This document shows, in pieces, positions 1-22,568 of a stretch of DNA of 22,568 bases (position 1 is its first letter; every line of letters begins with the position of its first letter). Below the pieces are notes generated by a model. That model had not been told where the DNA came from. It ran no database searches and saw only the letters and a program-made list of their open reading frames with translations. The DNA is from Saccoglossus kowalevskii (Eukaryota; Hemichordata; Enteropneusta; Harrimaniidae): NCBI RefSeq assembly GCF_000003605.2, contig NW_003150734.1, positions 1 to 22,568 of the forward strand, in the 5' to 3' direction. The position numbers and the translations under genes were made by a program.

Positions 1-27
1 CAACTATGAGTTTGAACAATTTGATAA

Positions 28-1278
28 ATGTCACTATCGATAACACATTACCAATTTCAATCGAGCGACGAAGAATCGTCAAATATTGACGGATATGATA
101 GTGATAGTAGCGACGAAGATGACGTCGGCGACGACGAATTATTGATTCAATCAAGCGATGATAAATCTTTGAACATTAACCAACGCCATGACGATCAAAG
201 TAGCAACAAGGATGACGTCATCGATGATTCATTGTCACTCCAATCAAGCGATGATGAATCTTTGAACATTGACCAACGTCATGACGATGACAGTAGTGAC
301 GAAGATGGCGCCATCAATGACACATTACCAATTCAGTCGAGCAACGAAGAATCGTTAAATGGTTATATTGACCGACGTGATGAAGATGACAGTAGTGACG
401 AGGATGACGTCATCAATAGCACACTACCAATTCAGTCAAGTGACGATGAATCGTCAAGTATTGACGGATGTGATAGTGATTTCAGTAGCGACGAAAATGA
501 CATCTGCGATGATTCATTGTGGATTCAATCAAGCGACGATGAATCGTTGAACATTGACCAACGAGATGATGATGTTAGTAGCGACGAAGATGACGTCATC
601 GATGATTCATTGTCAATCGAACCAAGCGACGATGAATCGTTAAATGGATACATTGACCGGCTTGATAGTGACGTCAGTAGTGATGAAGATGATGATTTCA
701 TCGATGATTCGTTATCAATTGGATCTAATGATGACGAATTGATCAATGCAGACTTCAATGCACATGGTGATGGACATTTTGCGAGACTTCGAGAGAATGA
801 TTATAATGAAGTTGTCAATGAAAGAAATGAAGAACTTATCAACGCGCTCGTGAGGGTGGTAGAATCTGATGATGTGTTACCAAATGCTGGCGGTGTTGAT
901 CTTGCTTACGATAATCTAGTAATGGTAGATATCCATTGCTTCGAATTTGATATTATGTATTCACGCATACGGGCATGGCTTGAACGAGGAGTTCGACTGC
1001 CACCCCTACGTCTTAATGCCCGGGCAAACGATGGAATAGTACAGGTGGGACTATTTACACCGGAACAAGTTGAAATACTTTACCGAGAGGTGCAATTCAG
1101 ACTTCTGAAAGAGACTGCATCGCCAAACATGCAACCATCGAATGAAAATGGCGTCGACGTCGGATCACAGATTCCTGTCTCAAAAAAGTCTCGCCGTAAA
1201 AGAAAAAGATGTGATGAAGAAACAGAAGAGCGTATTGCGCATGAGTGGAAGAACATGAGATTGTTGCGACGAGTCTGA
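28..1278 (+). CDS. Acidic Ser/Asp-repeat nuclear-type protein, copy 1 (5'-truncated, first codons out of frame)
   Basis: This is the 3' part of the same gene as the one ending at 13576. From about base 58 the frame matches copy 2: eight acidic repeats of 30-34 residues (bases about 58-755), a non-repetitive C-terminal region beginning near HGDGHFARL (about 762-1135), then a basic tail with KKSRRKRKR. The ATG at 28 is probably not the true start. Relative to copy 2 there is an extra base near 25-27 and an extra T in the run at 55-57, so the first ten codons read the wrong frame. The original frame entering from upstream meets TAA soon after. The basic N-terminal part seen in copy 2 would lie outside the window. 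Compared with copy 2 it has 12 extra codons in repeat 6 (DESLNIDQRDDD) and ends LLRRV rather than LLP. The function is unknown. The two indels may be real inactivation or errors at a contig end. Confidence 0.7.
   Translation: MSLSITHYQFQSSDEESSNIDGYDSDSSDEDDVGDDELLIQSSDDKSLNINQRHDDQSSNKDDVIDDSLSLQSSDDESLNIDQRHDDDSSDEDGAINDTLPIQSSNEESLNGYIDRRDEDDSSDEDDVINSTLPIQSSDDESSSIDGCDSDFSSDENDICDDSLWIQSSDDESLNIDQRDDDVSSDEDDVIDDSLSIEPSDDESLNGYIDRLDSDVSSDEDDDFIDDSLSIGSNDDELINADFNAHGDGHFARLRENDYNEVVNERNEELINALVRVVESDDVLPNAGGVDLAYDNLVMVDIHCFEFDIMYSRIRAWLERGVRLPPLRLNARANDGIVQVGLFTPEQVEILYREVQFRLLKETASPNMQPSNENGVDVGSQIPVSKKSRRKRKRCDEETEERIAHEWKNMRLLRRV
58..758 (+). repeat. Coding minisatellite of about 93 bp, copy 1
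   Basis: Eight tandem coding units, most of them 90-102 bp, each encode a variant of IQSSDDESLN, then IDQR or GYIDR, then SSDEDDVIDD. All unit lengths are multiples of three, so copy-number change keeps the frame. Unit 6 is full length here but shortened by 36 bp in the second gene copy. The Ser residues lie before Asp/Glu runs, which fits casein kinase 2 target sites (inference). Confidence 0.85.
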
Positions 1279-1544
1279 GCAGATTTATGAACAAGACAAT
1301 TACGAAAGTTTTGTTTCTTCTTAATTTGCTGTGAAAGTGTAAATCAATAAATGTATAATGGATTTCATCGTTATATGCTGGTTCTCTTTATTTCTTACCA
1401 ATTATAAATGTGAATTTTAATGATTATGGTTTAATTCAAAACGTCAATTTTGATATACAGTCTGAACACGACTTCCAACATTTGCTTATTGTAAAGAAAT
1501 TGTTATTATATTCGTATGAATTAAGAGAAAGTGAGGCTTTGTAC
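1279..1544 (+). other. 3' UTR and flank of gene copy 1
   Basis: This non-coding stretch joins the stop codon to the first satellite monomer. It matches 13577-13848 with only two visible substitutions (GAGGCT against GAAGGT just before the array). A poly(A) signal lies inside it. Short open frames here run into the satellite and show no sign of being genes. Confidence 0.75.
1346..1351 (+). terminator. Poly(A) signal, gene copy 1
   Basis: A canonical AATAAA lies about 68 bases after the stop codon. It is followed at a suitable distance by a T/G-rich stretch (GGTTCTCTTTATTTC, about 1380-1394) that could serve as the downstream element. It is conserved in copy 2. It supports a eukaryotic polyadenylated transcript that ends before the satellite. 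Confidence 0.7.
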
Positions 1545-2300
1545 ACCACACCTAATATTAACGACGCTAAGATTAAACCACGCTCTCGTAGACCACACCT
1601 AATATTAACGACGCTAAGATTAAACCACGCTCTCGTAGACAACACCTAATATTAACGACGCTAAGATTAAACCACGCTCTCGTAGACCACACCTAATATT
1701 AACGACGCTAAGATTAAACCACGCTCTCGTAGACCACACCTAATGTTAACAACGCTAAGATTAAACCACGCTCTCGTAGACCACACCTAATATTAACGAC
1801 GCTAAGATTAAACCACGCTCTCGTAGACCACACCTAATATTAACGACGCTAAGATTAAACCACGCTCTCGTAGACCACACCTAATATTAACGACGCTAAG
1901 ATTAAACCACGCTCTCGTAGACCACACCTAATATTAACGACGATAAGATTAAACCATGCTCTCGTAGACAACACCTAATGTTAACAACGCTAAGATTAAA
2001 CCACGCTCTCGTAGACCACACCTAATATTAACGACGCTAAGATTAGACCACGCTCTCATAGACCACACCTAATATTAACGACGCTAAGATTAAACCACGC
2101 TCTCGTAGACACCACCTAATGTTAACAACGCTAAGATTAAACCACGCTCTCATAGACCACACCTAGTATTAACAACGCTAAGATTAAACCACGCTCTCGT
2201 AGACAACACCTAATATTAACGATGCTAAGATTAAACCACGCTCTCGTAGACCACACCTAATGTTAACGACGCTAGATTAAACCACGCTCTCGTAGACACA

Positions 2301-3000
2301 CCTAATATGTTAACAACGCTAAGATTAAACCACACTCTCGTAGACCACACTAATGTTAACGACGCTAAGATTAAAGCATGCTCTTGTAGACAACACATAA
2401 TGTTAACGACGCTAAGATTAAACCACGCTCACGTAGACAACACCTAATGTTAATGACGCTAAGATTAAACCATGCTCTCGTAGACCATACCTAATATTAA
2501 CGACTCTAAGATTAAACCACGCTCTCGTAGACAACACCTAATATTAACGGCGCTAAAATTAAACCACGCTCTAGTAGACCCCACATAATATTAACGACGC
2601 TAAGATTAAACCACGCTCTCGTAGACCACACCTAATGTTAACGAAGCTAAGATTAAACCACGCTCTCGTAGACCACACCTTATATTAACGCCGCTAAGAT
2701 TAAACCACGCTCTCGTAGACTACACCTAATGTTAACGACGCTAAGATTAAACCACGCTCTCGTAGACAACACCTAATGTTAACAACGCTAAGATTAAACC
2801 ACGCTCTCGTAGACAACACCTAATGTTAACAACGCTAAGATTAAACCACGCTCTAATAGACAACACCTAATGTTAACAACGCTAAGATTAAACCACGCTC
2901 TCGTAGACAACACCTAATGTTAACGACGCTAAGATTAAACCACGCTCTCGTAGACAACACCTAATGTTAACGACGCTAAGATTAAACCACGCTCTCGTAG
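2301..3000 (+). repeat. Higher-order block, about 15 monomers, repeated three more times
   Basis: This run starts with the 49-bp monomer. It carries a recognisable series of variants: CATGCTC, GACTCTAAG, CTCTAGTAGACCCCACATAA, CCTTATATTAACGCC and CTCTAATAGAC. The same series returns from about 4135, 6957 and 15922. The spacings are close to 39 and 60 monomers plus two bases within array 1. The shared variant order shows block duplication rather than independent mutation. Confidence 0.75.
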
Positions 3001-3179
3001 ACAACACCTAATATTAACAACGCTAAGATTAAACCACGCTCTCGTAGACCACAACTAATGTTAACGACGCTAAGATTAAACCACGCTCTCGTAGACAACA
3101 CCTAATGTTAACGACGCTAAGATTAAACCACGCTCACGTAGACAACACCTAATGTTAACGACGCTAAGATTAAACCACG

Positions 3180-4870
3180 CTCTCGTAGACGACACCTAAT
3201 GTTAACAATGCTAAGATTAAACCACGCTCTCGTAGACACCACCTAATGTTAATGACGCTAAGATTAAACCACTCTCTCGTAGACTCCACCTAATGTTAAC
3301 GACGCTAAGATTAAACCACGCTCTCGTAGACCACACATAATGTTAACGACGCTAAGATTAAACCACGCTCTCATAGACAACACCTAATATTAACGACGCT
3401 AAGATTAAACCACGCTCTCATAGACCACACCTAATATTAACGACGCTAAGATTAAACCACGCTCTCGTAGACCACACCTAATATTAACGACGCTAAGATT
3501 AAACCACGCTCTCATAGACAACACCTAATATTACCGGCGCTAAGATTAAACCACGCTCTCGTGGACCTCACCTAATATTAACGACGCTAAGATTAAACCA
3601 CGCTCTCGTAGAATACACCTAATGTTAACGACGCTAAGATTAAACCACGCTCTCGTAGACCACACCAAATGTTAACGACGCAAAGATTAAACCACGCTCT
3701 CGTAGACCACACCTAATATTAACGACGCTAAGATTAAACCAGGCTCTCGTAGACAACACCTAATGTTAACAACGCTAAAATTAAACCACGCTCTCATAGA
3801 CCACATCTAACGTTAACAATGCTAAGATTAAACCACGTTCTCGTAGACCACACCTAATATTAACGACGCTAAGATTAAACCACGCTCTCGTAGACCACAC
3901 CTAATATTAACGACGCTAAGATTAAACCAGGCTCTCGTAGACAACACCTCATGAAAACAACGCTAAAATTAAACCACGCTCTCGTAGACCACATCTAACG
4001 TTAACAACGCTAAGATTAAACCACGCTCTCGTAGACAACACCTAATATTAACAACGCTAAAATTAAACCACGCTCTCGTAGACCACATCTAATGTTAACA
4101 ACGCTAAGATTAAACCACGCTTTCGTAGACAACACCTAATATGTTAACAACGCTAAGATTAAACCACACTCTCGTAGACCACACCTAATGTTAACGACGC
4201 TAAGATTAAACCATGCTCTCGTAGATAACACCTAATGTTAACGACGCTAAGATTAAACCACGCTCACGTAGACAACACCTAATGTTAATGACGCTAAGAT
4301 TAAACCATGCTCTCGTAGACCATACCTAATATTAACGACTCTAAGATTAAACCACGCTCTCGTAGACAACACCTAATATTAACGGCGCTAAAATTAAACC
4401 ATGCTCTAGTAGACCCCACATAATATTAACGACGCTAAGATTAAACCACGCTCTCGTAGACCACACCTAATGTTAACGAAGCTAAGATTAAACCACGCTC
4501 TCGTAGACCACACCTTATATTAACGCCGCTAAGATTAAACCACGCTCTCGTAGACTACACCTAATGTTAACGACGCTAAGATTAAACCACGCTCTCGTAG
4601 ACAACACCTAATGTTAACAACGCTAAGATTAAACCACGCTCCCGTAGACAACACCTAATGTTAACAACGCTAAAATTAAACCACGCTCTAATAGACAACA
4701 CCTAATGTTTACAACGCTAAGATTAAACCACGCTCTCGTAGACAACACCTAATGTTAACGACGCTAAGATTAAACCACGCTCTCGTAGACAACACCTAAT
4801 GTTAACGACGCTAAGATTAAACCACGCTCTCGTAGACAACACCTAATGTTAACGACGCTAAGATTAAACC
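3180..4870 (+). repeat. Large satellite block, copy A (pairs with 6002-7692)
   Basis: Rare variants line up with those 2822 bp downstream, which is 60 monomers plus the two-base insertion. Examples are TATTACCGGC at 3529 and 6351, the CATGAAAAC-type monomer at 3947 and 6769, and the 49-bp monomer at 4135 and 6957. The match starts near 3180 and fades near 4870. Part of it (3529 to about 4060) also matches 21475 to about 22010. Confidence 0.75.
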
Positions 4871-6001
4871 ACGCTCTCGTGGACCACACCTAATGTTAAC
4901 GACGCTAAGATTAAACCACGCTCTCGTAGACGACACCTAATGTTAACAACGCTAAGATTAAACCACGCTCTCGTAGACACCACCTAATGTTAATGACGCT
5001 AAGATTAAACCACGCTCTTGTAGACACCACCTAATGATAACGACGCTAAGATTAAACCACGCTCTCGTAGACCACACCTAATGTTAACGACGCTAAGATT
5101 AAACCACGCTCTCATAGACAACACCTAATATTAACGACGCTAAGATTAAACCACGCTCTCATAGACCACACCTAATATTAACGACGCAAAGATTAAACCA
5201 CGCTCTCGTAGACCACACCTAATATTAACGACGCTAAGATTAAACCATGCTCTCGTAGACAACACCTAATATTAACGGCGCTAAGATTAAACCACGCTCT
5301 CGTAGACCACACCTAATATTAACGACGCTAGGATTAAACCACGCTCTCGTAGAATACACCTAATGTTAACGACGCTAAGATTAAACCACGCTCTCGTAGA
5401 CCACAACTAATGTTAACGACGCAAAGATTAAACCACGCTCTCGTAGACCACACCTACTATTAACGATGCTAAGATTAAGCCTGGCTCTCGTAGACAACAC
5501 GTAATGTTAACAAAACTAAAATTAAACCACGCTCTCATAGACCACATCTAATGTTAACATCGCTAAGATTAAACCACGTTCTCGTAGACCACACCTAATA
5601 TTAACGACGCTAAGATTAAACCACGCTCTCGTAGACCACACCTAATATTAACGACGCTAAGATTAAACCACGCTCTCGTAGACAACACCTAATGTTAACG
5701 ACGCTAAGATTAAACCATGCTCTCGTAGACAACACCTAATGTTAACAACGCAAAGATTAAACCACGCTCTCGTAGACAACACCTAATGTTAACAACGCTA
5801 AGATTAAACCACGCTCTCGTAGACAACACCTAATGTTAACGACGCTAATATTAAACCACGCTCTCGTAGACCACACCTAATATTAACAACGCTAAGATTA
5901 AACCACGCCTTCGTAGACACAACCTATTATTAATGACGCTAAGATTAAACCACGCTCTCGTAGACCACACCTAATGTTAACGACGCTAAGATTAAACCAC
6001 G

Positions 6002-7692
6002 CTCTCGTAGACGACACCTAATGTTAACAATGCTAAGATTAAACCACGCTCTCGTAGACACCACCTAATGTTAATGACGCTAAGATTAAACCACGCTCTC
6101 GTAGACTCCACCTAATGTTAACGACGCTAAGATTAAACCACGCTCTCGTAGACCACACCTAATGTTAACGACGCTAAGATTAAACCACGCTCTCATAGAC
6201 AACACCTAATATTAACGACGCTAAGATTAAACCACGCTCTCATAGACCACACCTAATATTAACGACGCTAAGATTAAACCACGCTCTCGTAGACCACACC
6301 TAATATTAACGATGCTAAGATGAAACCACGCTCTCATAGACAACACCTAATATTACCGGCGCTAAGATTAAACCGCGCTCTCGTGGACCACACCTAATAT
6401 TAACGACGCTAAGATTAAACCACGCTCTTGTAGAATACACCTAATGTTAACGACGCTAAGATTAAACCACGCTCTCGTAGACCACACCAAATGTTAACGA
6501 CGCAAAGATTAAACCACGCTCTCGTAGACCACACCTAATATTAACGACGCTAAGATTAAACCAGGCTCTCGTAGACAACACCTAATGTTAACAACGCTAA
6601 AATTAAACCACGCTCTCATAGACCACATCTAACGTTAACAACGCTAAGATTAAACCACGTTCTCGTAGACCACACCTAATATTAACGACGCTAAGATTAA
6701 ACCACGCTCTCATAGACCACACCTAATATTAACGACGCTAAGATTAAACCAGGCTCTCGTAGACACTACCTAATGAAAACAACGGTAAAATTAAACCACG
6801 CTCTCGTAGACCACATCTAACGTTAACAACGCTAAGATTAAACCACGCTCTCGTAGACAACACCTAATATTAACAACGCTAAAATTAAACCACGCTCTCG
6901 TAGACCACATCTAATGTTAACAACGCTAAGATTAAACCACGCTTTCGTAGACAACACCTAATATGTTAACAACGCTAAGATTAAACCACACTCTCGTAGA
7001 CCACACCTAATGTTAACGACGCTAAGATTAAACCACGCTCTCGTAGACAACACCTAATGTTAACGACGCTAAGATTAAACCACGCTCACGTAGACAACAC
7101 CTAATGTTAACGACGCTAAGATTAAACCACGCTCTCGTAGACCACACCTAATGTTAATGACGCTAAGATTAAACCATGCTCTCGTAGACCATACCTAATA
7201 TTAACGACTCTAAGATTAAACCACGCTCTCGTAGACAACACCTAATATTAACGGCGCTAAAATTAAACCACGCTCTAGTAGACCCCACATAATATTAACG
7301 ACGCTAAGATTAAACCACGCTCTCGTAGACCACACCTAATGTTAACGAAGCTAAGATTAAACCACGCTCTCGTAGACCACACCTTATATTAACGCCGCTA
7401 AGATTTAACCACGCTCTCGTAGACTACACCTAATGTTAACGACGCTAAGATTAAACCACGCTCTCGTAGACAACACCTAATGTTAACAACGCTAAGATTA
7501 AACCACGCTCTCGTAGACAACACCTAATGTTAACAACGCTAAGATTAAACCACGCTCTAATAGACAACACCTAATGTTAACAACGCTAAGATTAAACCAC
7601 GCTCTCGTAGACAACACCTAATGTTAACGACGCTAAGATTAAACCACGCTCTCGTAGACAACACCTAATGTTAACGACGCTAAGATTAAACC
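6002..7692 (+). repeat. Large satellite block, copy B (pairs with 3180-4870)
   Basis: This is the downstream partner of the block 2822 bp upstream, with the same variant order. From about 6351 it also aligns with array 2 at 15316 onward (offset 8965, continuing to about 8280 and 17200). Over about 4985-6830 the array aligns with 17947-19800 (offset 12962). This stretch therefore has several partners in register-shifted positions. Confidence 0.75.
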
Positions 7693-8749
7693 ACGCTCTC
7701 GTAGACAACACCTAATATTAACTACGCTAAGATTAAACTACGCTCTCGTAGACAACTCCTAATGTTAACGACGCTAAGATTAAACCAGGCTCTCGTAGAC
7801 ACCACCTAATATTAACGACGCTAAGATTAAACCACGCTCTCGTAGACCACACCTAATGTTAACGACACTAAGATTAAACCACGCTCTCGTAGATGACACC
7901 TAATGTTAACAACGCTAAGATTAAACCACGCTCTCGTAGACACCACCTAATGTTAATGACGCTAAGATTAAACCACGCTCTCGTAGACACCACCTAATGT
8001 TAACAACGCTAAGATTAAACCACGCTCTCGTAGACCACACCTAATATTAACGACGCTCAGATTAAACCACGCTCTCGTAGACCACACCTAATGTTAACGA
8101 CGCTAAGATTAAACCACGCTCTCATAGACAACACCTAATATTAACGACGCTAAGATTAAACCACGCTCTCATAGATCACACCTAATATTAACGACGCTAA
8201 GATTAAACCACGCTCTCGTAGACCACACCTAATATTAACGACGCTAAGATTAAACTACGCTCTCGTAGATCACACCTAATATTAACGACACTAAGATTAA
8301 ACCACACTCTCGTAGACCACACCTAATATTAATGACGCTAAGATTAAACCAGGCTCTCGTAGACAACACCTGATGTTAACAACGCTAAAATTAAACCATG
8401 TTCTCGTAAACCACATCTAACGTTAACAACGTTAAGATTAAACCATGCTCTCGTAGACCACACCTAATGTTAACAACGCTAAGATTAAACCACGCTCTCG
8501 TAGACCACACCTAATATTTTAACAACGCTATGATTAAACCACGCTCTCGTAGACAACACCTAATATGTTAACAACGCTAAGATTAAACCAGGCTCTCGTA
8601 GACCACACCTAATATTAACAACGCTAAGATTAAACCACGCTCTCGTAGACCACACCTAATATTAACGACGCTCAGATTAAACCACGCTCTCGTAGACGAT
8701 ACCTAATGTTAACGACGCTAAGATTAAACCACACTCTCGTAGACCACAC

Positions 8750-9822
8750 CTTATGTTAAAGAAGCTAACATTAAATCACGCCCTCATTTAGCACACATAA
8801 TGTCAATGACGTTAACATTAAATCACATCTTCGTTGAGCACACATAATGTCAATGACGTCAACTCTAAACCACGTCCTCGTAGACAACACCTAATGATAA
8901 CGACGCTAACCTTAAATCACGCCCTCGTAGACCACACATAATTTCAACGAACGACGTTAAAATTACACCATGCCCCACTAGACAACACATAATGTTAAAG
9001 ATGCTAACATTGATAATTGATAACGACATCAACATTAAACCACGTCTTATTAGACCACCATTAATGTTAATGACACCAAAAATAAACCACGCCCTCGTAG
9101 ACCACACCTAATGTTAACGAAGTTAACATTAATCCACGTCCTCTCAGACCACCATGAATGTTAATGACGTCAACATTAAACCACGCCCTCGTAGACCACA
9201 CCTTATGTTAAAGATGCTGACATTAAGTCACGCCCTCGTAGACCACACATATTGTCAACGACGTTAACATTAAACCACGCCCTCGTAGACCACGCCTAAT
9301 GTTAACGACGTTAACATTAAATCACGCCCTCCTAGAACACGCCTAATGTCAACGACGTTAACATTAAACCATGCCCTCGTAGACCACACATAATGTTAAC
9401 GACGCTAACATTAAACCACGCCCTCGTAGAACACGCCCAATGTCAACGATGTTAACATTAAACCATGCCCTCGTAGACCACACATAATGTTAACGACGTT
9501 AACATTAAATCACGCCCTCGTAGAACACGCCTAATGTCAACGACGTTAACATTAAACCATGCCCTCGTAGACCACCATTAATGTTAACGACGCTAACATT
9601 AAACCACGCCCTCGTAGACAACACCTAATGTTAACGACGCTAACATTAAACCATGCCCTCGTAGACCACACATAATGTTAACGACGCTAACATTAAACCA
9701 CGCTCTCGTAGACCACACCTACTGTCAAAAACGTTGATATTAAACCTCGCCGGCATAGACCACACCTAATGTCAACGACGTTAACATTAAATCACGCCCT
9801 CGTAGACCACCATTAATGTTAT
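8750..9822 (+). repeat. Decayed distal edge of array 1, about 23 diverged 47-bp monomers
   Basis: The 47-bp period continues but the sequence changes to a related subfamily, with GTTAACATTAAA in place of GCTAAGATTAAA, CGCCCTCGTAGA in place of CGCTCTCGTAGA, and frequent TGTCAACGACG. There are point changes and small indels, including an extra AACG-type insertion near 8947. Decay at one end only contrasts with the clean gene-side edge. The first 240 bases match the end of the window almost perfectly. The last monomer breaks off near 9822 into unrelated AT-rich DNA. Confidence 0.9.
9287..9616 (+). repeat. 94-bp dimeric higher-order repeat in the decayed edge
   Basis: Two monomer types alternate: one with AGAACACGCC followed by TGTCAACG, the other with AGACCACACATAATGTTAACG. 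AGAACAC starts at 9334, 9428 and 9522, exactly 94 bp apart. Two monomers contain a perfect 23-bp dyad at 9297-9319 and 9485-9507, with arms TAATGTTAACG and CGTTAACATTA around a single A. Confidence 0.75.
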
Positions 9823-10357
9823 TTCCATTATTTATGAATGCAAATACACAGAGTTTATTTTTTTTGCAATAAATTGTACTCTGGGCAATATAACGATATT
9901 GACTTTAACAAGTTGGGCGTAACCAGCCTAATTTTCGAGAAATTGATGGTTGTATTTTAGTGGATAGTGGCCATGTTCACAGAATTAAAATGGTTTTAGT
10001 ATAGGTTACTACGGCACAGATATGTTGCCGTATCTCAAATTGTAGTCTGAGGAAACAGGCTGGAAAAATCATATATTATGAATATTGTGTTTCTCAGTTA
10101 TTTGAAAAATCGTGGTTTTAAAGAGTGTAAAAAAATACATTTTTTCTTTAATATAGTGTTTTATTTTGTAAAAATTGGGACAAGTTTCTCAAAATACGTT
10201 TCTGGAACAAACAAACAAACGCCGTGGGACAGTAGCTCCATGATTTTACATAATTGAACCAAGGAACATTGTCATGCGATGTATAACCAACTTTCTCTCA
10301 TAGAATGTGATATGACATGTTTTATTTTTTATTGCGATCTGCATACATGAGAGCTAA
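9823..10357 (+). other. Inter-unit spacer, left part; no gene seen
   Basis: AT-rich, non-satellite DNA between the array edge and the inverted-repeat element. It contains T and A runs, an AACAAACAAACAAACG microsatellite near 10207, and an AATAAA near 9869 of unclear meaning. I see no open frame with coding character, no RNA gene and no similarity to other parts of the window. Confidence 0.6.
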
Positions 10358-10409
10358 GGGGCGACGTCAAAAGATCGATGTCGGATAAAAAACTTATTTC
10401 CTTTAGTTT
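10358..10409 (+). repeat. Left terminal inverted repeat
   Basis: It pairs with 10756-10807. The visible mismatches are the fourth base (G against A) and one T/A in ACTTATTTCC against ACTTAATTCC. The near-perfect match suggests a fairly young insertion. Confidence 0.8.
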
Positions 10410-10755
10410 GGGGGGTGGGGGGTTTTGACTTCAAAAAGTTTCCATCCTACAAAAACGATTTTATTTTTTAATGAAGTCAAAAAAATCTTGGAGTATTTTT
10501 AGTTCGTTTTTTATCTATCCAATCATGGACAGAAATAACCGAAAAGGGAAAAAAAACAGAAAAATGGTTTGGTTCAAGTGTAAATCTGTGCGTCAAATGA
10601 GGTGCATTTGTAAAATTGTTTACATCCACCCGACAACCAACTGTTATGCAATACTACTGTCCGATTATCAATTTGTATTTAATGGTGAATGTAGTCTGAC
10701 GCCATGACCAATATTTATCAATTAAGTTTCAGTGGGGGGTAGAGGGTTTGAAAAA

Positions 10756-10807
10756 AAACTAAAGGAATTAAGTTTTTTATCCGACATCGATCTTTTGACG
10801 TCGTCCC
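10756..10807 (-). repeat. Right terminal inverted repeat
   Basis: Inverted partner of 10358-10409, ending GACGTCGTCCC directly before the TAA that matches the left flank. Confidence 0.8.
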
Positions 10808-10810
10808 TAA

Positions 10811-11044
10811 TAAATTAATACATGATAGTACAATATTGTCCACGGCATCGTAATGGATTCTGTTTGACCATGCTGCACATTTGGCATATCAATCTAAAAC
10901 AGAAATTGCACTACAATCTACGTGCAACGTTTTGTCGATTTTCTCATAAAATGTATGCAACGCAGTCTTGTAGTTCATAGAAATTGGTTTATTTATAAAT
11001 CCAGTTTTGATTCATTCATAAACCAATAATAGTATTTTATTACC
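10811..11044 (+). other. Spacer between MITE and CpG patch; nothing recognised
   Basis: AT-rich non-satellite DNA without a convincing open frame, repeat or RNA structure. It leads into the CpG-dense patch that may be a promoter. Confidence 0.5.
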
Positions 11045-11167
11045 AACGCTTGCTGAGTGTGTGAAATTACGGGCGCCTCGCAAAGGACGCTGGGAACCGC
11101 AACATTCAGCGGCGCGGTGCGCCATCAACGGCGACGCGCGCATCTCGGCGTACGCAACTATTATAAA
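11045..11167 (+). promoter_or_regulatory. CpG-dense patch with TATA-like box, candidate promoter of gene copy 2
   Basis: About 17 CpG dinucleotides fall within some 90 bases (about 11069-11156), very unlike the AT-rich surroundings. They include the small hairpin GGCGC-GGT-GCGCC. TATAAA follows at 11162-11167. TCAGT, the arthropod-type initiator, occurs at 11199-11203, somewhat too far from the TATA box to be typical. The position about 0.9 kb upstream of the coding exon, with a consensus splice donor in between, fits a promoter plus a 5' exon. This is inference; transcript data are lacking. Confidence 0.4.
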
Positions 11168-11420
11168 CGTGTTTGTGTAGCCTTCATAATGTTTTTATTC
11201 AGTCAAACATTTTGTTATCACCTATTTAGTTGTTGCTGACATGATTTTTTTTTTCTAAAATTCTATAAATTCACTAATATGTACACTTTCATGACGATGC
11301 CTTTACGACTGTGAGATCACAATGGTAGTTCGAATGTTCCAATCACCGCGACATTTGCATATAGCGTCGAACACTTCTCTGTTTATTGCTGATCGATCTT
11401 ATCGTGACCGCACATTGTAG

Positions 11421-11502
11421 ACAAATCCTCTTGATTCAAGTGAATTATCGTCGTATCTGAACCGAACCACACGTAATTTTCAGAGCCATTTGTACAACAC
11501 AG
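11421..11502 (+). other. Candidate upstream exon ending at a consensus splice donor
   Basis: The sequence CACAG/GTGAGTGA puts a near-ideal donor after 11502. Read in the frame that would join the main exon, the stretch from 11421 to 11502 is open (27 codons) but has no ATG, and TAG stands at 11418-11420. It could be part of a 5' UTR exon starting further upstream or a short internal exon (AG at 11419-11420 or 11482-11483 could act as acceptors). The sequence does not decide between these. Confidence 0.3.
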
Positions 11503-12029
11503 GTGAGTGAAAGTTGATAATAAATGGTTTAGTTTTAAGTCACCCGTTATGCATACGAACTTCACATATGTGCCAGAGAAGACCGCCGAGTGCTTTGGAA
11601 TTACAAGTTCAATATATTCATTTCCGTTATCCTGGTTATATCACATTAATAGGAAAGTAAAATTATGTGAATTAAAAATTAAGTGGATTTACGATCATCG
11701 TTTTAGTTTTATAATAACCAAAAAAGCAGTTTACTTCGATCGTAAACCATCTTTAATGAAAAGTAGTTGAGCTGGTAAGCTATGGGAGATATGAGCTCCG
11801 TTTTTTAAGAATAAATACAGGTCCAATTTGTTGATTAAGATTCAACCAGAGTAAAACCGTATTCGACTGGAATCGATGTCATCCAATGTTACCAACTATG
11901 TGACTGTATATAGCGCATATAGAAATGAACACAAACAAATGAACAAAATTATACGGGACTTATTCACAGCTTGGAAACAAATAATCAACCAAACAAATAT
12001 GAATATTCTCTCGTCTTGTTATTTTTCAG
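11503..12029 (+). other. Candidate intron upstream of gene copy 2
   Basis: The donor GTGAGTGA at 11503 and the acceptor TCTTGTTATTTTTCAG ending at 12029 delimit 527 bp. The acceptor has a good pyrimidine tract. Only eight bases after it comes an ATG in good Kozak context. Open frames inside (for example from 11507, which begins with GTG) look accidental. Confidence 0.45.
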
Positions 12030-12037
12030 ATTTAAAT

Positions 12038-13576
12038 ATGGTGAAACAAAGAGAAATAGTGAAGATACACCCATCTGTGATGAAAGCATTTCTTCGACCA
12101 ACACAACGTACAACTACAAGGATGAGTACGGGTGGAAGACCTAGATGGTGGACGAAACAAATGAACTTACTTTGGAGGATGTCATCTTTAGCATCAACTG
12201 GACATCCAGTAGAATGGCAGTTTCCTCCCCATATATCAGTTAGCGATGATGCTTTTCCATTCGATAAATGGGAAATGATTATCACCAATGATGTGAAAAT
12301 TCGCAGAAAGAAAAACAAAAGAAGATCAAAATTATATTACCGTGATATAAACATTGAACAATTTGATGATGTCACTATCGATAACACATTACCAATTCAA
12401 TCGAGCGACGAAGAATCGTCAAATATTGACGGATATGATAGTGATAGTAGCGACGAAGATGACGTCGGCGACGACGAATTATTGATTCAATCAAGTGATG
12501 ATGAATCTTTGAACATTAACCAACGTCATGACAATCAAACTAGCGACGAGGATGACGTCATCGATGATTCATTGTCACTCCAATCAAGCGATGATTTTTC
12601 TTTGAACATTGACCAACGTCATGACGATGACAGTAGTGACGAAGATGGCGTCATCAATGACACATTACCAATTCAGTCGAGCAACGAAGAATCGTTAAAT
12701 GGTTATATTGACCGACGTGATGAAGATGACAGTAGTGACGAGGATGACGTCATCAATAGCACACTATCAATTCAGTCAAGTGACGATGAATCGTCAAGTA
12801 TTGACGGATGTGATAGTGATGCCAGTAGCGACGAAAATGACATCTGCGATGATTCATTATGGATTCAATCAAGCGATGTTAGTAGCGACGAAGATGACGT
12901 CATCGATGATTCAATGTCAATCGAACCAAGCGACGATGAATCGTTAAATGGATACATTGACCGACTTGATAGTGACGTCAGTAGTGATGAAGATGATGAT
13001 TTCATCGACGATTCGTTATCAATTGGATCTAATGATGACGAATTGATCAATGTAGACTTCAATGCACATGGTGATGGACATTTTGCGAGACTTCGAGAGA
13101 ATGATTATAATGAAGTTGTCAATGAAAGAAATGAAGAACTTATCAACGCGCTCGTGAGGGTGGTAGAATCTGATGATGTGTTACCAAATGCTGGCGGTGT
13201 TGATCTTGCTTACGATAATCTAGTAATGGTAGATATCCATTGCTTCGAATTTGATATTATGTATTCACGCATACGGGCATGGCTTGAACGAGGAGTTCGA
13301 CTGCCACCCCTACGTCTTAATGCCCGGGCAAACGATGGAATAGTACAGGTGGGACTATTTACACCGGAACAAGTTGAAATACTTTACCGAGAGGTGCAAT
13401 TCAGACTTCTGAAAGAGACTGCATCGCCAAACATGCAACCATTGAATGAAAATGGCGTCGACGTCGGATCACAGACTCCTGTCTCAAAAAAGTCTCGCCG
13501 TAAAAGAAAAAGATGCGATGAAGAAACAGAAGAGCGTATTGCGCATGAGTGGAAGACAATGAGATTGTTGCCATGA
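12038..13576 (+). CDS. Acidic Ser/Asp-repeat nuclear-type protein, copy 2
   Basis: This encodes 512 residues of no family I recognise. Residues 1-119 are basic and Trp-containing (GRPRWWTKQMNLLWRM), with a nuclear-localisation-type RRKKNKRRSK near 89-98. Residues about 120-338 are eight acidic repeats of the type IQSSDDESLN plus SSDEDDVIDD, dense in potential casein kinase 2 sites. Residues about 343-470 form a non-repetitive, probably folded region (HGDGHFARL through PPLRLNARANDGIVQVGLFTPEQ). The tail carries KKSRRKRKR at about 484-492. No signal peptide or membrane segment is seen. The ATG at 12038 is chosen because it has A at -3 and G at +4 and follows a strong splice acceptor. The frame is open upstream to an ATG at 11876 (566 residues) in weak context, so that start or a spliced 5' exon remains possible. 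Alternating basic and acidic blocks suggest a nucleolar or chromatin role (inference only). Confidence 0.75.
   Translation: MVKQREIVKIHPSVMKAFLRPTQRTTTRMSTGGRPRWWTKQMNLLWRMSSLASTGHPVEWQFPPHISVSDDAFPFDKWEMIITNDVKIRRKKNKRRSKLYYRDINIEQFDDVTIDNTLPIQSSDEESSNIDGYDSDSSDEDDVGDDELLIQSSDDESLNINQRHDNQTSDEDDVIDDSLSLQSSDDFSLNIDQRHDDDSSDEDGVINDTLPIQSSNEESLNGYIDRRDEDDSSDEDDVINSTLSIQSSDDESSSIDGCDSDASSDENDICDDSLWIQSSDVSSDEDDVIDDSMSIEPSDDESLNGYIDRLDSDVSSDEDDDFIDDSLSIGSNDDELINVDFNAHGDGHFARLRENDYNEVVNERNEELINALVRVVESDDVLPNAGGVDLAYDNLVMVDIHCFEFDIMYSRIRAWLERGVRLPPLRLNARANDGIVQVGLFTPEQVEILYREVQFRLLKETASPNMQPLNENGVDVGSQTPVSKKSRRKRKRCDEETEERIAHEWKTMRLLP
12395..13054 (+). repeat. Coding minisatellite of about 93 bp, copy 2
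   Basis: Repeat anchors (ATTCAATC-like) begin at about 12395, 12485, 12578, 12671, 12770, 12863, 12920 and 13022. The spacings are 90, 93, 93, 99, 93, 57 and 102 bp, all multiples of three. The 57-bp spacing is a 93-bp unit that lost 36 bp, removing DESLNIDQRDDD relative to copy 1. Confidence 0.85.
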
Positions 13577-13848
13577 GTCTGAGCAGATTTATGAACAAGA
13601 CAATTACGAAAGTTTTGTTTCTTCTTAATTTGCTGTGAAAGTGTAAATCAATAAATGTATAATGGATTTCATCGTTATATGCTGGTTCTCTTTATTTCTT
13701 ACCAATTATAAATGTGAATTTTAATGATTATGGTTTAATTCAAAACGTCAATTTTGATATACAGTCTGAACACGACTTCCAACATTTGCTTATTGTAAAG
13801 AAATTGTTATTATATTCGTATGAATTAAGAGAAAGTGAAGGTTTGTAC
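13577..13848 (+). other. 3' UTR and flank of gene copy 2
   Basis: Matches the flank of copy 1 almost base for base at offset 12304 and leads straight into the first satellite monomer. A short open frame at 13714-13953 runs into the satellite and is not credible as a gene. Confidence 0.75.
13650..13655 (+). terminator. Poly(A) signal, gene copy 2
   Basis: AATAAA about 74 bases after the stop, at exactly the position equivalent to copy 1, with the same T/G-rich stretch downstream. Confidence 0.7.
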
Positions 13849-16159
13849 ACCACACCTAATATTAACGACGCTAAGATTAAACCACGCTCTCGTAGACCAC
13901 ACCTAATATTAACGACGCTAAGATTAAACCACGCTCTCGTAGACCACACCTAATATTAACGACGCTAAGATTAAACCACGCTCTCGTAGACCACACCTAA
14001 TGTTAACGACGCTAAGATTAAACCACGCTCTCGTAGACCACACCTAATGTTAACAACGCTAAGATTAAACCACGCTCTCGTAGACCACACCTAATGTTAA
14101 CAACGCTAAGATTAAACCACGCTCTCGTAGACCACACCTAATGTTGACGACGCTAAGATTAAACCACGCTCTGGTAGACACCACCTAATGTTAACAACGC
14201 TAATATTAAACCACGCTCTCGTAGACTACACCTAATATTAACGACGCTAAGATTAAACCACGCCCTCGTAGACACCACCTAATGTTAACAACGCTAATAT
14301 TAAACCACGCTCTCGTAGACTACACCTAATATTAACGACGCTAAGATTAAACCACGCCCTCGTAGACACCACCTAATATTAACGACGCTAACATTAAACC
14401 ATGCTCTCGTAGACAACACCTAATATTAACGACGCTAAGATTAAACCACGCTCTGGTAGACACCACCTAATGTTAACAACGCTAAGATTAAACCATGCTC
14501 TCGTAGACTACATCTAATATTAACGACGCTAAGATTAAACCACGCTCTCGTAGACACCACCTAATGTTAACAACGCTAAGATTAAACCATGCTCTCGTAG
14601 ACTACACCTAATATTAACGACGCTAAGATTAAACCACGCTCTCGTAGACCACACCTAATGTTAACGACCCTAAGATTAAACCACGCCCTCGTAGACACCA
14701 CCTAATGTTGACGACGCTAACATTAAACCATGCTCTCGTAGACACACCTAATGTTAACGACGCTAAGATTAAACCACGCTCTCGTAGACACCACCTAATG
14801 TTAACGACGCTAAGATTAAACCACGCTCACGTAGACAACAATTAATGTTAACGACGCTAAGATTAAACCACGCTCTCGTAGACGACACGTAATGTTAACA
14901 ATGCTAAGATTAAACCACGCTCTCGTAGACGACAGCTAATGTTAATGACGCTAAGATTAAACCACGCTCTTGTAGACTCCACCTAATGTTAACGACGCTA
15001 AGATTAAACCACACTCTCGTAGACTACCACTAATGTTAACGACGCTAAGATTAAATCACGCTCTCATAGACCACATCTAACGTTAACAACGCTAAGATTA
15101 AACCACGTTCTCGTAGACAACATCTAATAATAACGACGCTAAGATTAAACCACGCTCTCGTAGACCACACGTAATATTAACGACGCTAAGATTAAACCAC
15201 GCTCTCATAGACAACATCAAATATTAACGACGCTAAGATTAAACCACGCTCTCGTAGACCACACCTAATATTAACGACGCTAAGATTAAACCATGCTCTC
15301 GTAGACAACACCTAATATTACCGGCGCTAAGATTAAACCGCGCTCTCGTGGACCACACCTAATATTAACGACGCTAAGATTAAACCACGCTCTTGTAGAA
15401 TACACTTAATGTTAACGACGCTAAGATTAAACCACGCTCTCGTAGACCACACCAAATGTTAACGACGCAAAGATTAAACCACGCTCTCGTAGACCACACC
15501 TAATATTAACGACGCTAAGATTAAACCAGGCTCTCGTAGACAACACCTAATGTTAACAACGCTAAAATTAAACCACGCTCTCATAGACCACATCTAACGT
15601 TAACAACGCTAAGATTAAACCACGTTCTCGTAGACCACACCTAATATTAACGACGCTAAGATTAAACCACGCTCTCATAGACCACACCTAATATTAACAA
15701 CGCTAAGATTAAACCAGGCTCTCGTAGACACTACCTAATGAAAACAACGGTAAAATTAAACCACGCTCTCGTAGACCACATCTAACGTTAACAACGCTAA
15801 GATTAAACCACGCTCTCGTAGACAACACCTAATATTAACAACGCTAAAATTAAACCACGCTCTCGTAGACCACATCTAATGTTAACAACGCTAAGATTAA
15901 ACCACGCTTTCGTAGACAACACCTAATATGTTAACAACGCTAAGATTAAACCACACTCTCGTAGACCACACCTAATGTTAACGACGCTAAGATTAAACCA
16001 CGCTCTCGTAGACAACACCTAATGTTAACGAAGCTAAGATTAAACCACGCTCACGTAGACAACACCTAATGTTAACGACGCTAAGATTAAACCACGCTCT
16101 CGTAGACCACACCTAATGTTAATGACGCTAAGATTAAACCATGCTCTCGTAGACCATAC

Positions 16160-16765
16160 CTAATATTAACGACTCTAAGATTAAACCACGCTCTCGTAGA
16201 CAACACCTAATATTAACGGCGCTAAAATTAAACCACGCTCTAGTAGACCCCACATAATATTAACGACGCTAAGATTAAACCACGCTCTCGTAGACCACAC
16301 CTAATGTTAACGAAGCTAAGATTAAACCACGCTCTCGTAGACCACACCTTATATTAACGCCGCTAAGATTAAACCACGCTCTCGTAGACTACACCTAATG
16401 TTAACGACGCTAAGATTAAACCACGCTCTCGTAGACAACACCTAATGTTAACAACGCTAAGATTAAACCACGCTCTCATAGACAACACCTAATGTTAACA
16501 ACGCTAAGATTAAACCACGCTCTAATAGACAACACCTAATGTTAACAACGCTAAGATTAAACCACGCTCTCGTAGACAACACCTAATGTTAACGACGCTA
16601 AGATTAAACCACGCTCTCGTAGACAACACCTAATGGTAACGACGCTAAGATTAAACCACGCTCTCGTAGACAACACCTAATATTAACGACGCTAAGATTA
16701 AACTACGCTCTCGTAGACAACTCCTAATGTTAACGACGCTAAGATTAAACCAGGCTCTCGTAGAC
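16160..16765 (+). repeat. 22-monomer-period duplication, first copy
   Basis: Pairs with 17194-17799 at exactly 1034 bp (22 x 47). Markers shared in order include GACTCTAAG at 16171 and 17205, CCTTATATTAACGCC at 16347 and 17381, and ACTCCTAATG at about 16720 and 17754. Almost no differences separate the two copies, so the event is recent. Confidence 0.8.
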
Positions 16766-17193
16766 ACCACCTAATATTAACGACGCTAAGATTAAACCAC
16801 GCTCTCGTAGACCACACCTAATGTTAACGACACTAAGATTAAACCACGCTCTCGTAGATGACACCTAATGTTAACAACGCTAAGATTAAACCACGCTCTC
16901 GTAGACACCACCTAATGTTAATGACGCTAAGATTAAACCACGCTCTCGTAGACACCACCTAATGTTAACAACGCTAAGATTAAACCACGCTCTCGTAGAC
17001 CACACCTAATGTTAACGACGCTAAGATTAAACCACGCTCTCATAGACAACACCTAATATTAACGACGCTAAGATTAAACCACGCTCTCATAGATCACACC
17101 TAATATTAACGACGCTAAGATTAAACCACGCTCTCGTAGACCACACCTAATATTAACGACGCTAAGATTAAACTACGCTCTCGTAGATCACAC

Positions 17194-17799
17194 CTAATAT
17201 TAACGACTCTAAGATTAAACCACGCTCTCGTAGACAACACCTAATATTAACGGCGCTAAAATTAAACCACGCTCTAGTAGACCCCACATAATATTAACGA
17301 CGCTAAGATTAAACCACGCTCTCGTAGACCACACCTAATGTTAACGAAGCTAAGATTAAACCACGCTCTCGTAGACCACACCTTATATTAACGCCGCTAA
17401 GATTAAACCACGCTCTCGTAGACTACACCTAATGTTAACGACGCTAAGATTAAACCACGCTCTCGTAGACAACACCTAATGTTAACAACGCTAAGATTAA
17501 ACCACGCTCTCATAGACAACACCTAATGTTAACAATGCTAAGATTAAACCACGCTCTAATAGACAACACCTAATGTTAACAACGCTACGATTAAACCACG
17601 CTCTCGTAGACAACACCTAATGTTAACGACGCTAAGATTAAACCACGCTCTCGTAGACAACACCTAATGGTAACGACGCTAAGATTAAACCACGCTCTCG
17701 TAGACAACACCTAATATTAACGACGCTAAGATTAAACTACGCTCTCGTAGACAACTCCTAATGTTAACGACGCTAAGATTAAACCAGGCTCTCGTAGAC
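17194..17799 (+). repeat. 22-monomer-period duplication, second copy
   Basis: Second copy of 16160-16765. Afterwards the array switches to the variant order seen near 4900-5000 of array 1, so this junction looks like an unequal-exchange breakpoint. Confidence 0.8.
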
Positions 17800-20700
17800 C
17801 ACATCTAATGTTAACGACGCTAAGATTAAACCACGCTCTCGTGGACCACACCTAATGTTAACGACGCTAAGATTAAACCACGCTCTCGTAGATGACACCT
17901 AATGTTAACAACGCTAAGATTAAACCACGCTCTCGTAGACACCACCTAATGTTAATGACGCTAAGATTAAACCACGCTCTTGTAGACACCACCTAATGAT
18001 AACGACGCTAAGATTAAACCACGCTCTCGTAGACCACACCTAATGTTAACGACGCTAAGATTAAACCACGCTCTCATAGACAACACCTAATATTAACGAC
18101 GCTAAGATTAAACCACGCTCTCATAGACCACACCTAATATTAACGACGCAAAGATTAAACCACGCTCTCGTAGACCACACCTAATATTAACGACGCTAAG
18201 ATTAAACCATGCTCTCGTAGACAACACCTAATATTAACGGCGCTAAGATTAAACCACGCTCTCGTAGACCACACCTAATATTAACGACGCTATGATTAAA
18301 CCACGCTCTCGTAGAATACACCTAATGTTAACGACGCTAAGATTAAACCACGCTCTCGTAGACCACAACTAATGTTAACGACGCAAAGATTAAACCACGC
18401 TCTCGTAGACCACACCTACTATTAACGACGCTAAGATTAAGCCAGGCTCTCGTAGACAACACGTAATGTTAACAAAACTAAAATTAAACCACGCTCTCAT
18501 AGACCACATCTAATGTTAACAACGCTAAGATTAAACCACGTTCTCGTAGACCACACCTAATATTAACGACGCTAAGATTAAACCACGCTCTCGTAGACCA
18601 CACCTAATATTAACGACGCTAAGATTAAACCACGCTCTCGTAGACAACACCTAATGTTAACGACGCTAAGATTAAACCATGCTCTCGTAGACAACACCTA
18701 ATGTTAACAACGCAAAGATTAAACCACGCTCTCGTAGACAACACCTAATGTTAACAACGCTAAGATTAAACCACGCTCTCGTAGACAACACCTAATGTTA
18801 ACGACGCTAATATTAAACCACGCTCTCGTAGACCACACCTAATATTAACAACGCTAAGATTAAACCACGCCTTCGTAGACACCACCTATTATTAACGACG
18901 CTAAGATTAAACCACGCTCTCGTAGACCACACCTAATGTTAACGACGCTAAGATTAAACCACGCTCTGGTAGACGACACCTAATGTTAACAACGCTAAGA
19001 TTAAACCACGCTCTCGTAGACACCACCTAATGTTAATGACGCTAAGATTAAACCACGCTCTCGTAGACTCCACCTAATGTTAATGACGCTAAGATTAAAC
19101 CACGCTCTCATAGACCACACCTAATGTTAACGACGCTAAGATTAAACCACGCTCTCATAGACAACACCTAATATTAACGACGCTAAGATTAAACCACGCT
19201 CTCATAGACCACACCTAATATTAACGACGCTAAGATTAAACCACGCTCTCGTAGACCACACCTAATATTAACGATGCTAAGATTAAACCACGCTCTCATA
19301 GACAACACCTAATATTACCAGCGCTAAGATTAAACCGCGCTCTCGTGGACCACACCTAATATTAACGACGCTAAGATTAAACCACGCTCTTGTAGAATAC
19401 ACCTAATGTTAACGACGCTAAGATTAAACCACGCTCTCGTAGACCACACCAAATGTTAACGACGCAAAGATTAAACCACGCTCTCGTAGACCACACCTAA
19501 TATTAACGACGCTAAGATTAAACCAGGCTCTCGTAGACAACACCTAATGTTAACAACGCTAAAATTAAACCACGCTCTCATAGACCACATCTAACGTTAA
19601 CAACGCTAAGATTAAACCACGTTCTCGTAGACCACACCTAATATTAACGACGCTAAGATTAAACCACGCTCTCATAGACCACACCTAATATTAACGACGC
19701 TAAGATTAAACCAGGCTCTCGTAGACAACACCTAATGAAAACAACGCTAAAATTAAACCACGCTCTCGTAGACCACATCTAACGTTAACAACGCTAAGAT
19801 TAAACCACGCTCTCGTAGACACCACCTATTATTAACGATGCTAAGATTAAACCACGCTCTCGTAGACCACACCTAATGTTAACGACGCTAAGATTAAACC
19901 ACGCTCTCGTAGACCACACCTAATGTTAACAACGCTAAGATTAAACCACGCTCTCGTAGACACCACCTAATGTTAATGACGCTAAGATTAAACCACGCTC
20001 TCGTAGACTCCACCTAATGTTAACGACGCTAAGATTAAACCACGCTCTCATAGACAACACCTAATATTACCGGCGCTAAGATTAAACCACGCTCTCGTAG
20101 ACAACACCTAATATTAACGACGCTAAGATTAAACCACGCTCTCGTAGACCACACCTAATGTTAACGACGCTAAGATTAAACCACGCTCTCGTAGACAACA
20201 CCTAATGTTAACGACGCTAAGATTAAACCACGCTCACGTAGACAACACCTAATGTTAACGACGCTAAGATTAAACCACGCTCTCGTAGACGACACCTAAT
20301 GTTAACAATGCTAAGATTAAACCACGCTCTCGTAGACGACAGCTAATGTTAACGACGCTAAGATTAAACCACGCTCTCGTAGACCACACCTAATGTTAAC
20401 GACGCTAAGATTAAACCACGCTCTCGTAGACCACACCTAATGTTAACGACGCTAAGATTAAACCACGCTCTCGTAGACCATACCTAATATTAACGACGCT
20501 AAGATTAAACCACGCTCTCGTAGACAACACCTAATATTAACGACGCTAAGATTAAACCACGCTCTCGTAGACCACACCTAATATTAACGACGCTAAGATT
20601 AAACCACGCTCTCGTAGACTACACCTAATATTAACGACGCTAAGATTAAACCACGCTCTCGTAGACTACACCTAATGTTAACGACGCTAAGATTAAACCA

Positions 20701-22290
20701 CGCTCTATTAGACAACACCTAATGTTAACAACGCTAAGATTAAACCACGCTCTCGTAGACAACACCTAATGTTAACAACGCTAAGATTAAACCACGCTCT
20801 AGTAGACAACACCTAATGTTAACAACGCTAAGATTAAACCACGCTCTCGTAGACAACACCTAATGTTAACGACGCTAAGATTAAACCACGCTCTCGTAGA
20901 CAACACCTAATGTTAACGACGCTAAGATTAAACCACGCTCTCGTAGACAACACCTAATATTAATGACGCTAAGATTAAACTACGCTCTCGTAGACAACAC
21001 CTAATGTTAACGACGCTAAGATTAAACCACGCTCTCGTAGACACCACCTATTATTAACGATGCTAAGATTAAACCACGCTCTCGTAGACCACACCTAATG
21101 TTAACGACGCTAAGATTAAACCACGCTCTCGTAGACGACACCTAATGTTAACAACGCTAAGATTAAACCACGCTCTCGTAGACACCACCTAATGTTAATG
21201 ACGCTAAGATTAAACCACGCTCTCGTAGACTCCACCTAATGTTAACGACGCTAAGATTAAACCACTCTCTCGTAGACCACACCTAATGTTAACGACGCTA
21301 AGATTAAACCACGCTCTCATAGACAACACCTAATATTAACGACGCTAAGATTAAACCACGCTCTCATAGACCACACCTAATATTAACGACGCTAAGATTA
21401 AACCACGCTCTCGTAGACCACACCTAATATTAACGACGCTAAGATTAAACCACGCTCTCATAGACAACACCTAATATTACCGGCGCTAAGATTAAACCAC
21501 GCTCTCGTGGACCACACCTAATATTAACGACGCTAAGATTAAACCACGCTCTCGTAGAATACACCTAATGTTAACGACGCTAAGATTAAACCACGCTCTC
21601 GTAGACCACACCAAATGTTAACGACGCAAAGATTAAACCACGCTCTCGTAGACCACACCTAATATTAACGACGCTAAGATTAAACCAGGCTCTCGTAGAC
21701 AACACCTAATGTTAACAACGCTAAAATTAAACCACGCTCTCATAGACCACATCTAACGTTAACAACGCGAAGAATAAACCACGTTCTCGTAGACCACACC
21801 TAATATTAACGACGCTAAGATTAAACCACGCTCTCGTAGACCACACCTAATATTAACGACGCTAAGATTAAACCAGGCTCTCGTAGACAACACCTAATGA
21901 AAACAACGCTAAAATTAAACCACGCTCTCGTAGACCACATCTAACGTTAACAACGCTAAGATTAAACCACGCTCTCGTAGACAACACCTAATATTAACAA
22001 CGCTAAAATTAAACCACGCTCTCGTAGACCACACCTAATGTTAACGAAGCTAAGATTAAACCACGCTCTCGTAGACCACACCTTATATTAACGCCGCTAA
22101 GATTAAACCACGCTCTCGTAGACTACACCTAATGTTAACGACGCTAAGATTAAACCACGCTCTCGTAGACCACACCTAATGTTAACAACGCTAAGATTAA
22201 ACCACGCTCTCGTAGACCACACCTAATATGTTAACAACGCTAAGATTAAACCAGGCTCTCGTAGACCACACCTAATGTTAACGACGTTAA

Positions 22291-22568
22291 GATTAAACCA
22301 CACCCTCGTAGACCACACCTTATGTTAAAGAAGCTAACATTAAATCACGCCCTCATTTAGCACACATAATGTCAATGACGTTAACATTAAATCACATCTT
22401 CGTTGAGCACACATAATGTCAATGACGTCAACTCTAAACCACGTCCTCGTAGACAACACCTAATGATAACGACGCTAACCTTAAATCACGCCCTCGTAGA
22501 CCACACATAATTTCAACGAACGACGTTAAAATTACACCATGCCCCACTAGACAACACATAATGTAAAG
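22291..22568 (+). repeat. Decayed distal edge of array 2 (cut by window end)
   Basis: From CCACACCTTATGTTAAAG onward this stretch is the same as about 8745-9000, monomer by monomer, including odd ones such as CATTTAGCACAC and CGTTGAGCACAC. The only difference seen over the last 240 bases is one missing T in the final ten. The rest of the edge and the next spacer would lie beyond the window. Confidence 0.9.

Follow-up and report, generated by a model that had tools for sequence, protein, structure and literature searches.

The question raised by this locus is whether a gene and a long satellite of 47-bp monomers have been amplified together as one macro-repeat and, if so, how such a unit could have arisen. 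The window, which is the whole stretch of DNA analysed here, is the entire contig C4063 of 22,568 bp, and it belongs to an animal assembly of 572,110,611 bp in 4830 contigs. The contig begins in a cut gene, continues through a poly(A) signal, the 47-bp satellite, a diverged edge, a MITE-derived segment, a MITE and a promoter, and then runs again through gene, poly(A) signal, satellite and an edge that is cut by the contig end. The features, in window coordinates, are the following:

12..1278, + strand, gene copy 1, its 5' part missing at the contig start
1346..1351, + strand, AATAAA poly(A) signal of copy 1, from a motif scan
1541..8738, + strand, homogeneous core of 47-bp satellite array 1
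8739..9825, + strand, diverged edge monomers of array 1; the edge consensus contains TTAACATTAAACCACGCCCTC
9834..10297, + strand, copy of a dispersed MITE-like family with eroded inverted ends, between the satellite edge and the promoter segment
10358..10807, unstranded, 450-bp MITE insertion, inverted ends of 53 bp, one flanking base being included in the repeat pair as called; TAA target duplication at 10355-10357 and 10808-10810
11111..11150, + strand, 40-bp GC-rich block 5' of exon 1, with the same sequence in the paralogue
11200..11502, + strand, putative 5'UTR exon 1, start uncertain, with a conserved CAG/GTGAGT donor at its end
11503..12029, + strand, putative 5'UTR intron, acceptor AG conserved
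12038..13576, + strand, gene copy 2, coding sequence of 512 aa from the MVKQ start
13650..13655, + strand, AATAAA poly(A) signal of copy 2, from a motif scan
13845..22307, + strand, homogeneous core of 47-bp satellite array 2
22308..22568, + strand, diverged edge monomers of array 2, truncated at the contig end

The macro-repeat of gene and satellite is genuine. The original prediction described two units of the same direction, each with gene, poly(A) signal, satellite and edge, and placed both ends of the window inside the unit; both statements are borne out on C4063, which starts in the gene and stops in the edge. The gene with its 3' flank is 98.05% identical between the two copies (12-1540 against 12354-13844; 1491 aligned columns, 29 substitutions), the 262 bp leading from the gene to the satellite contain 2 differences, and the edges of the two arrays agree at 98.4% over 311 bp. 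A single in-frame 36-bp deletion distinguishes copy 2 from copy 1, and 1-bp differences at 26 and 55 place the first codons of copy 1 out of frame relative to copy 2. The length of the unit is not constant, because the satellite arrays are unequal in length: the spacing of equivalent points is 12.3 kb if the gene ends are compared and 13.6 kb for the satellite edges. The promoter segment (9826-11875) occurs once in the window and is found at the same place in a unit of a second contig, C4542; therefore, the full unit is repeated.

The search of the assembly with the DNA of the C region gave five gene places, namely two on C4063, two on C4542 and one, at 82%, on C2715. The C-region protein found the identical five loci and the N-region protein four of the five, the copy cut at the start of C4063 having no N region. 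Contig C4542 (18,803 bp), read on its reverse strand, comprises a cut gene, satellite (1618-12186), edge, MITE-derived segment, promoter, gene (14503-16507), short satellite (16508-17423) and the MITE-derived segment again, after which about 20 bp of promoter are joined to decayed satellite, followed by a TTCA run and, beyond it, an 86% copy of the MITE-derived segment. This terminal remnant is read as a deletion at the array margin. The first gene copies of C4063 and C4542 are both cut by the contig starts, and their promoters would lie beyond the sequence. As in coding macrosatellites, units of several kb are arranged head to tail, and the C region is open in four of four array copies (two of the four being cut by contig starts). 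The two small contigs that carry the units may or may not correspond to one or two chromosomal places, to which coding macrosatellites are restricted.

The expectation of more gene-plus-satellite units was borne out by C4542, but the longer tandem array is represented by just four copies over two contigs. A serious possibility, to which somewhat less than even weight is given, is that C4063 and C4542 represent the two haplotypes of a single small array with about two units and that no large amplification took place; it is compatible with the main reading of tandem amplification. Each contig carries two gene copies, C4542 finishes in a remnant rather than in another unit, and the gene copies differ by 1.1-2%, a difference that is also usual between alleles of outbred marine animals. 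However, no allelic pairing is apparent among the four array copies, all six pairs of which are 98.05-98.89% identical, the closest pair being C4063 copy 1 and C4542 copy 2 (98.89%). The satellite lengths are also strongly different, although alleles of arrays can diverge likewise.

The satellite was delimited by Tandem Repeats Finder at 1541-9011 and 13845-22519, with a period of 47, 90-91% matches and scores of 11,667 and 13,754, the rest of the first edge forming a separate row (9021-9821, 81%). When the edges are included, the window arrays contain 177 and at least 186 monomers and the C4542 arrays 241 and 20, which corresponds to satellite lengths from 0.9 to 11.3 kb. The two window arrays hold 333 core monomers, 146 of them distinct. 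All 275 occurrences of an exact monomer 27-mer in the assembly fall on the array contigs (154 in the window, 121 on C4542), and so do all 171 occurrences of an edge-variant 28-mer with up to 3 mismatches (103 on C4063, 68 on C4542); the backward-pattern controls for both searches gave 0 matches. Abundant, usually heterochromatic arrays at several places, which would mark a genome-wide satellite, were not found, the matches being confined to the two array contigs. As far as the assembly shows, the satellite appears to be private to the gene array, and collapsed, unassembled or more diverged copies are possible. The viral contigs searched with the 27-mer gave 0 matches, a satellite 20-mer had no occurrence in the literature searched, and no literature on this repeat was found among the matches listed for hemichordate satellite DNA and tandem repeats. 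Literature found on comparable layouts was for the most part general or concerned mammals and Drosophila. Within the monomer, positions 32-40 (ATTAAACCA) are 98-100% constant over the 333 monomers and positions 7, 17 and 23 are mixed. The constant positions could be a candidate protein-binding site or could just reflect recent monomer ancestry.

The comparison of monomers between arrays shows how the units are related. The first few and the last edge monomers are colinear between units, and blocks of 48 and 43 monomers, 98.4% and 98.7% identical, are shared out of register and in a non-colinear order. The 20-monomer array of C4542 is made up of 11 monomers that correspond in register to the left end of window array 2 (0.98-1.00) and of 9 that are most similar (0.96-1.00) to edge monomers of window array 1, 8 of these being in register; therefore, this array is an internal deletion. 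Among the two-state columns of the gene, seven link copy 1 to the second C4542 copy, whereas three link it to the first, and these incompatible patterns indicate that segments were exchanged among copies. The exchange within the satellite that the original prediction proposed is supported by the out-of-register blocks and by the internally deleted array. It must be considered that repeat misassembly can also yield shuffled monomer blocks, and that one unit could have been assembled repeatedly from noisy repeat reads; the starts of the two contigs fall within about 80 bp of one and the same point of the gene, and small frame differences are present in the gene copies located there. Repeated assembly of one unit is nevertheless very unlikely, as the four arrays are unlike in monomer content and length, one unit has the MITE where another cleanly lacks it, and the 36-bp gene indel is in frame. 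The frame differences of the copies at both contig starts (L007 7455-8801; window 12-60) may represent real decay or contig-end errors.

The protein of gene copy 2 consists of an N region of 105 aa, acidic Ser/Asp repeats of about 31 aa and a C region with the stretch KKSRRKRKR. The best explanation of the coding part of the unit is a putative fast-evolving gene of two exons whose acidic product carries a basic stretch near its C-terminus. The MVKQ at 12038 is the most likely start of translation, because the CAG/GTGAGT donor and the acceptor AG are kept in the paralogue. The open frame of 162 nt upstream of MVKQ (11876-12037) was rejected as coding, since the paralogue does not have that frame and the splice sites are conserved. 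Together, the acidic Ser/Asp repeats and the basic run suggest a nuclear protein. Neither of the two whole frames matched Pfam at E up to 1; with the limit raised to 10, the C region gave MRP-L28 (0.089, below its cut-off) and the N region nothing. In NCBIfam the C region had two weak matches far below cut-off and the N region none, and the searches of PHROGs, Rfam and phages gave no match. Among PDB sequences the N region had no match, and ten TGF-beta-1 sequences found with the C region (E 0.2-0.76) were taken as chance. Pattern searches returned 12 stretches in viral contigs and 100 in genome contigs, none of which was confirmed. The AlphaFold model of the C region has a mean pLDDT of 38.9.

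The solitary paralogue lies on the 1-Mb contig C2715 (L008 7522-9267, minus strand) and is about 80% identical to the array gene. Its frame is open, with 581 aa from the first ATG, and from MVKQ onwards it can be aligned with the array gene. Exon 1 is 89% identical, the intron 71% (counting aligned columns, with 130 gap columns besides) and the first part of exon 2 92%; the acidic repeats reach 77%, the C region 87% and the 3'UTR, as far as the poly(A) signal, 76%. Beyond that signal the alignment is lost. In 30 kb around the paralogue, of which 7.5 kb are masked as N and its own 3' flank is unmasked, the search for the 47-bp monomer gave just 10-bp chance matches. The 40-bp GC-rich block at 11111-11150 is identical in the paralogue, its surroundings being about 82-85% alike, and is possibly a regulatory site. 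The N region (window 12030-12353 against C2715:68854-69168) is 92% identical with a dS of 0.16, the dS of the repeats being 0.59 and that of the C region 0.24; this likeness may result from constraint or from conversion between distant loci.

Between the array gene and the paralogue, dN/dS was 0.36 in the N region, 0.45 in the repeats and 0.57 in the C region (NG86 values without error estimates). Among the repeats of copy 2, codons with a single difference were synonymous in 143 and non-synonymous in 135 cases, against 77/233 and 34/238 in the shifted frames, the pairs not being independent. Of the 22 codons that differ between copy 1 and copy 2, 16 are non-synonymous (one of them the stop codon) and 6 synonymous, where a synonymous share of about 20% is expected without selection. 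This is near to no constraint, and therefore some copies may be decaying. Because of the dN/dS values relative to the paralogue on the one hand and the codon differences between copies 1 and 2 on the other, the gene was constrained in the long term, and little constraint is seen in the window copies.

These properties of gene and satellite bear on the idea that the repeat is functional, namely as a binding site of the protein or of a chromatin factor, gene and satellite being maintained as a pair. The restriction of the repeat to the gene array in the assembly search, the contrast between the constant positions 32-40 and the variable positions 7, 17 and 23, and the basic clusters of the protein would agree with it. 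The paralogue, however, has the same protein layout and no satellite was found beside it, one unit is down to 20 monomers, no Pfam domain was recognised, and the uneven monomer conservation is explicable by shared recent ancestry; such a function is most unlikely, and the suggestion in the original prediction of a satellite maintained by its protein is not supported. In a related form, the private satellite would be a working part of the array that arose after the split from the paralogue and binds the array protein or, as a spacer, tunes gene dosage via exchange. We consider this very unlikely as well, but, if true, it would make the gene and its satellite a self-contained, self-adjusting unit.

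Two MITE-type sequences lie between the satellite edge and exon 1. The 450-bp MITE is absent from the matching unit of C4542, which shows a clean empty site, and a 77% relative of it lies near the paralogue on C2715. For the family of segment 9834-10297, 47 matches were listed, the best 40 of 1083 candidates being scored. In most of the 16 non-array loci (L050-L065) the inverted ends are of the TTAAGGTAGAAGCCTA type, and such ends are missing from the array copies. Because a relative is found downstream of the paralogue, the stretch 9826-10356 had earlier been read as a shared, ancestral piece of the locus; this reading was rejected, as the stretch belongs to a dispersed MITE-like family. The paralogue-side copy is 66-69% identical to the array copy over the main stretch, with one 79-bp piece at 76%, and the non-array copies are mostly 71-78% identical to the array (the best 40 of 1083, a biased comparison). 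On this comparison, the copies in the array and beside the paralogue give no evidence for shared ancestry. The joint movement of gene and satellite and the MITE-derived piece at the unit border could suggest a transposable element that comprises the whole unit and has the satellite in its interior. This is extremely improbable: gene and promoter were found just in the tandem copies and one diverged locus, the protein of the gene matches no transposase-like family, and the dispersed MITE-like family is a separate small element. Nor were dispersed copies of the unit with terminal structure and target-site duplication found.

The explanation that we favour, and hold to be probable, is that a fast-evolving gene was amplified in tandem and that a private satellite, homogenised by unequal exchange and conversion, grew in its 3' flank. 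The gene would have been duplicated in tandem with its promoter, and the 47-bp repeat in the 3' flank, between the poly(A) site and the old MITE, would have expanded into an array in each of the observed units. Thereafter, unequal exchange, presumably meiotic, and gene conversion among the units would have altered the satellite lengths and shuffled the monomer blocks. The same processes may have held the gene copies about 98-99% alike, while the solitary paralogue, beside which the satellite was not found, diverged to about 80%. The satellite may itself have promoted the amplification, the paralogue may represent the pre-satellite state, and the protein would be expressed and act in the nucleus.

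The description of a gene followed by its own satellite as unusual was overstated, since the same layout is present in DUXY with beta-satellite. Human and chimpanzee DUXY is described as four head-to-tail genes unequally spaced by blocks of 68-bp beta-satellite of 0.1-7.7 kb, one chimpanzee block reaching 145 kb; changes in satellite size are ascribed to unequal crossing-over or saltatory replication, length variation is restricted to the satellite, genes and satellite are said to evolve in concert, and beta-satellite occurs also near centromeres and at 19p12 (PMC2671837). The array studied here likewise has genes in one direction with blocks of a short-monomer satellite, unequal in length, between them, and its length variation resides mainly in that satellite (20 to 241 monomers); the MITE insertion, the 36-bp gene indel and one promoter-side deletion are also variable between units. 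Gene and monomer, however, are unrelated to those of DUXY, the 47-bp repeat was found here only whereas beta-satellite occurs elsewhere too, and a paralogue without satellite is at hand. The gene-plus-satellite layout is already known from DUXY, and what appears distinct here is a private satellite together with a paralogue that has none. The human zinc-finger cluster at 19p12, which Eichler is said to have described in 1998, reportedly expanded with beta-satellite structures, likewise a gene cluster with a satellite, but it is reportedly larger and involves another gene family and another satellite. The coding macrosatellites D4Z4/DUX4, RS447 and TAF11-Like are tandem kilobase units each with an ORF, and their units are of set length (D4Z4 3.3 kb, RS447 4.7 kb; PMC3018141). 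The present units share this tandem kilobase arrangement with an ORF; unlike the fixed units of D4Z4 and RS447, the full unit here consists for the most part of a separate satellite whose length varies. The 90U repeat of the Drosophila simulans complex corresponds to a subunit of the rDNA spacer (PMC7919458), and rDNA resembles the array in combining a gene with tandem subrepeats in the spacer. It differs in consisting of large arrays of RNA genes, whereas here a protein gene is present in 2-4 units.

The assembly also includes a mitochondrial contig (C4830, 17,037 bp; L043, L044/L045), in which the genes, named by eye from translations, follow the order COX2, ATP6, COX3, ND3, ND4L, ND4, ND5, CYTB, then ND6 on the opposite strand. 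COX1 is on the minus strand, opposite to COX2 and ND1, and ND2 precedes ND1. The codon ATA stands at what we take to be the usual isoleucine positions, and AAA at what are presumably the usual lysine positions. In a comparative account, ATA = Ile is common to echinoderms and hemichordates, AAA encodes lysine in Saccoglossus, nd5 and cob are adjacent in two hemichordates, and nd6 is the sole minus-strand protein gene of Balanoglossus (PMC2697986). The order on C4830 fits the hemichordate order given there in part; the strand of COX1 and the ND2-ND1 arrangement differ. A hemichordate is nevertheless the likely source, the mitochondrial code pointing to it and ND5 standing next to CYTB. An earlier reading as an arthropod, based on a TCAGT initiator, was rejected because the mitochondrial contig argues against it.

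Summarizing, the locus offers readable steps of satellite growth, from a paralogue without satellite through long arrays, a collapsed array and a more diverged edge. As the assembly search gave no occurrence of the repeat outside the array contigs, the birth of a satellite within a gene cluster would be testable here without a genome-wide background. If the animal is a hemichordate, the gene-plus-satellite layout known from primates would be extended to an invertebrate deuterostome.
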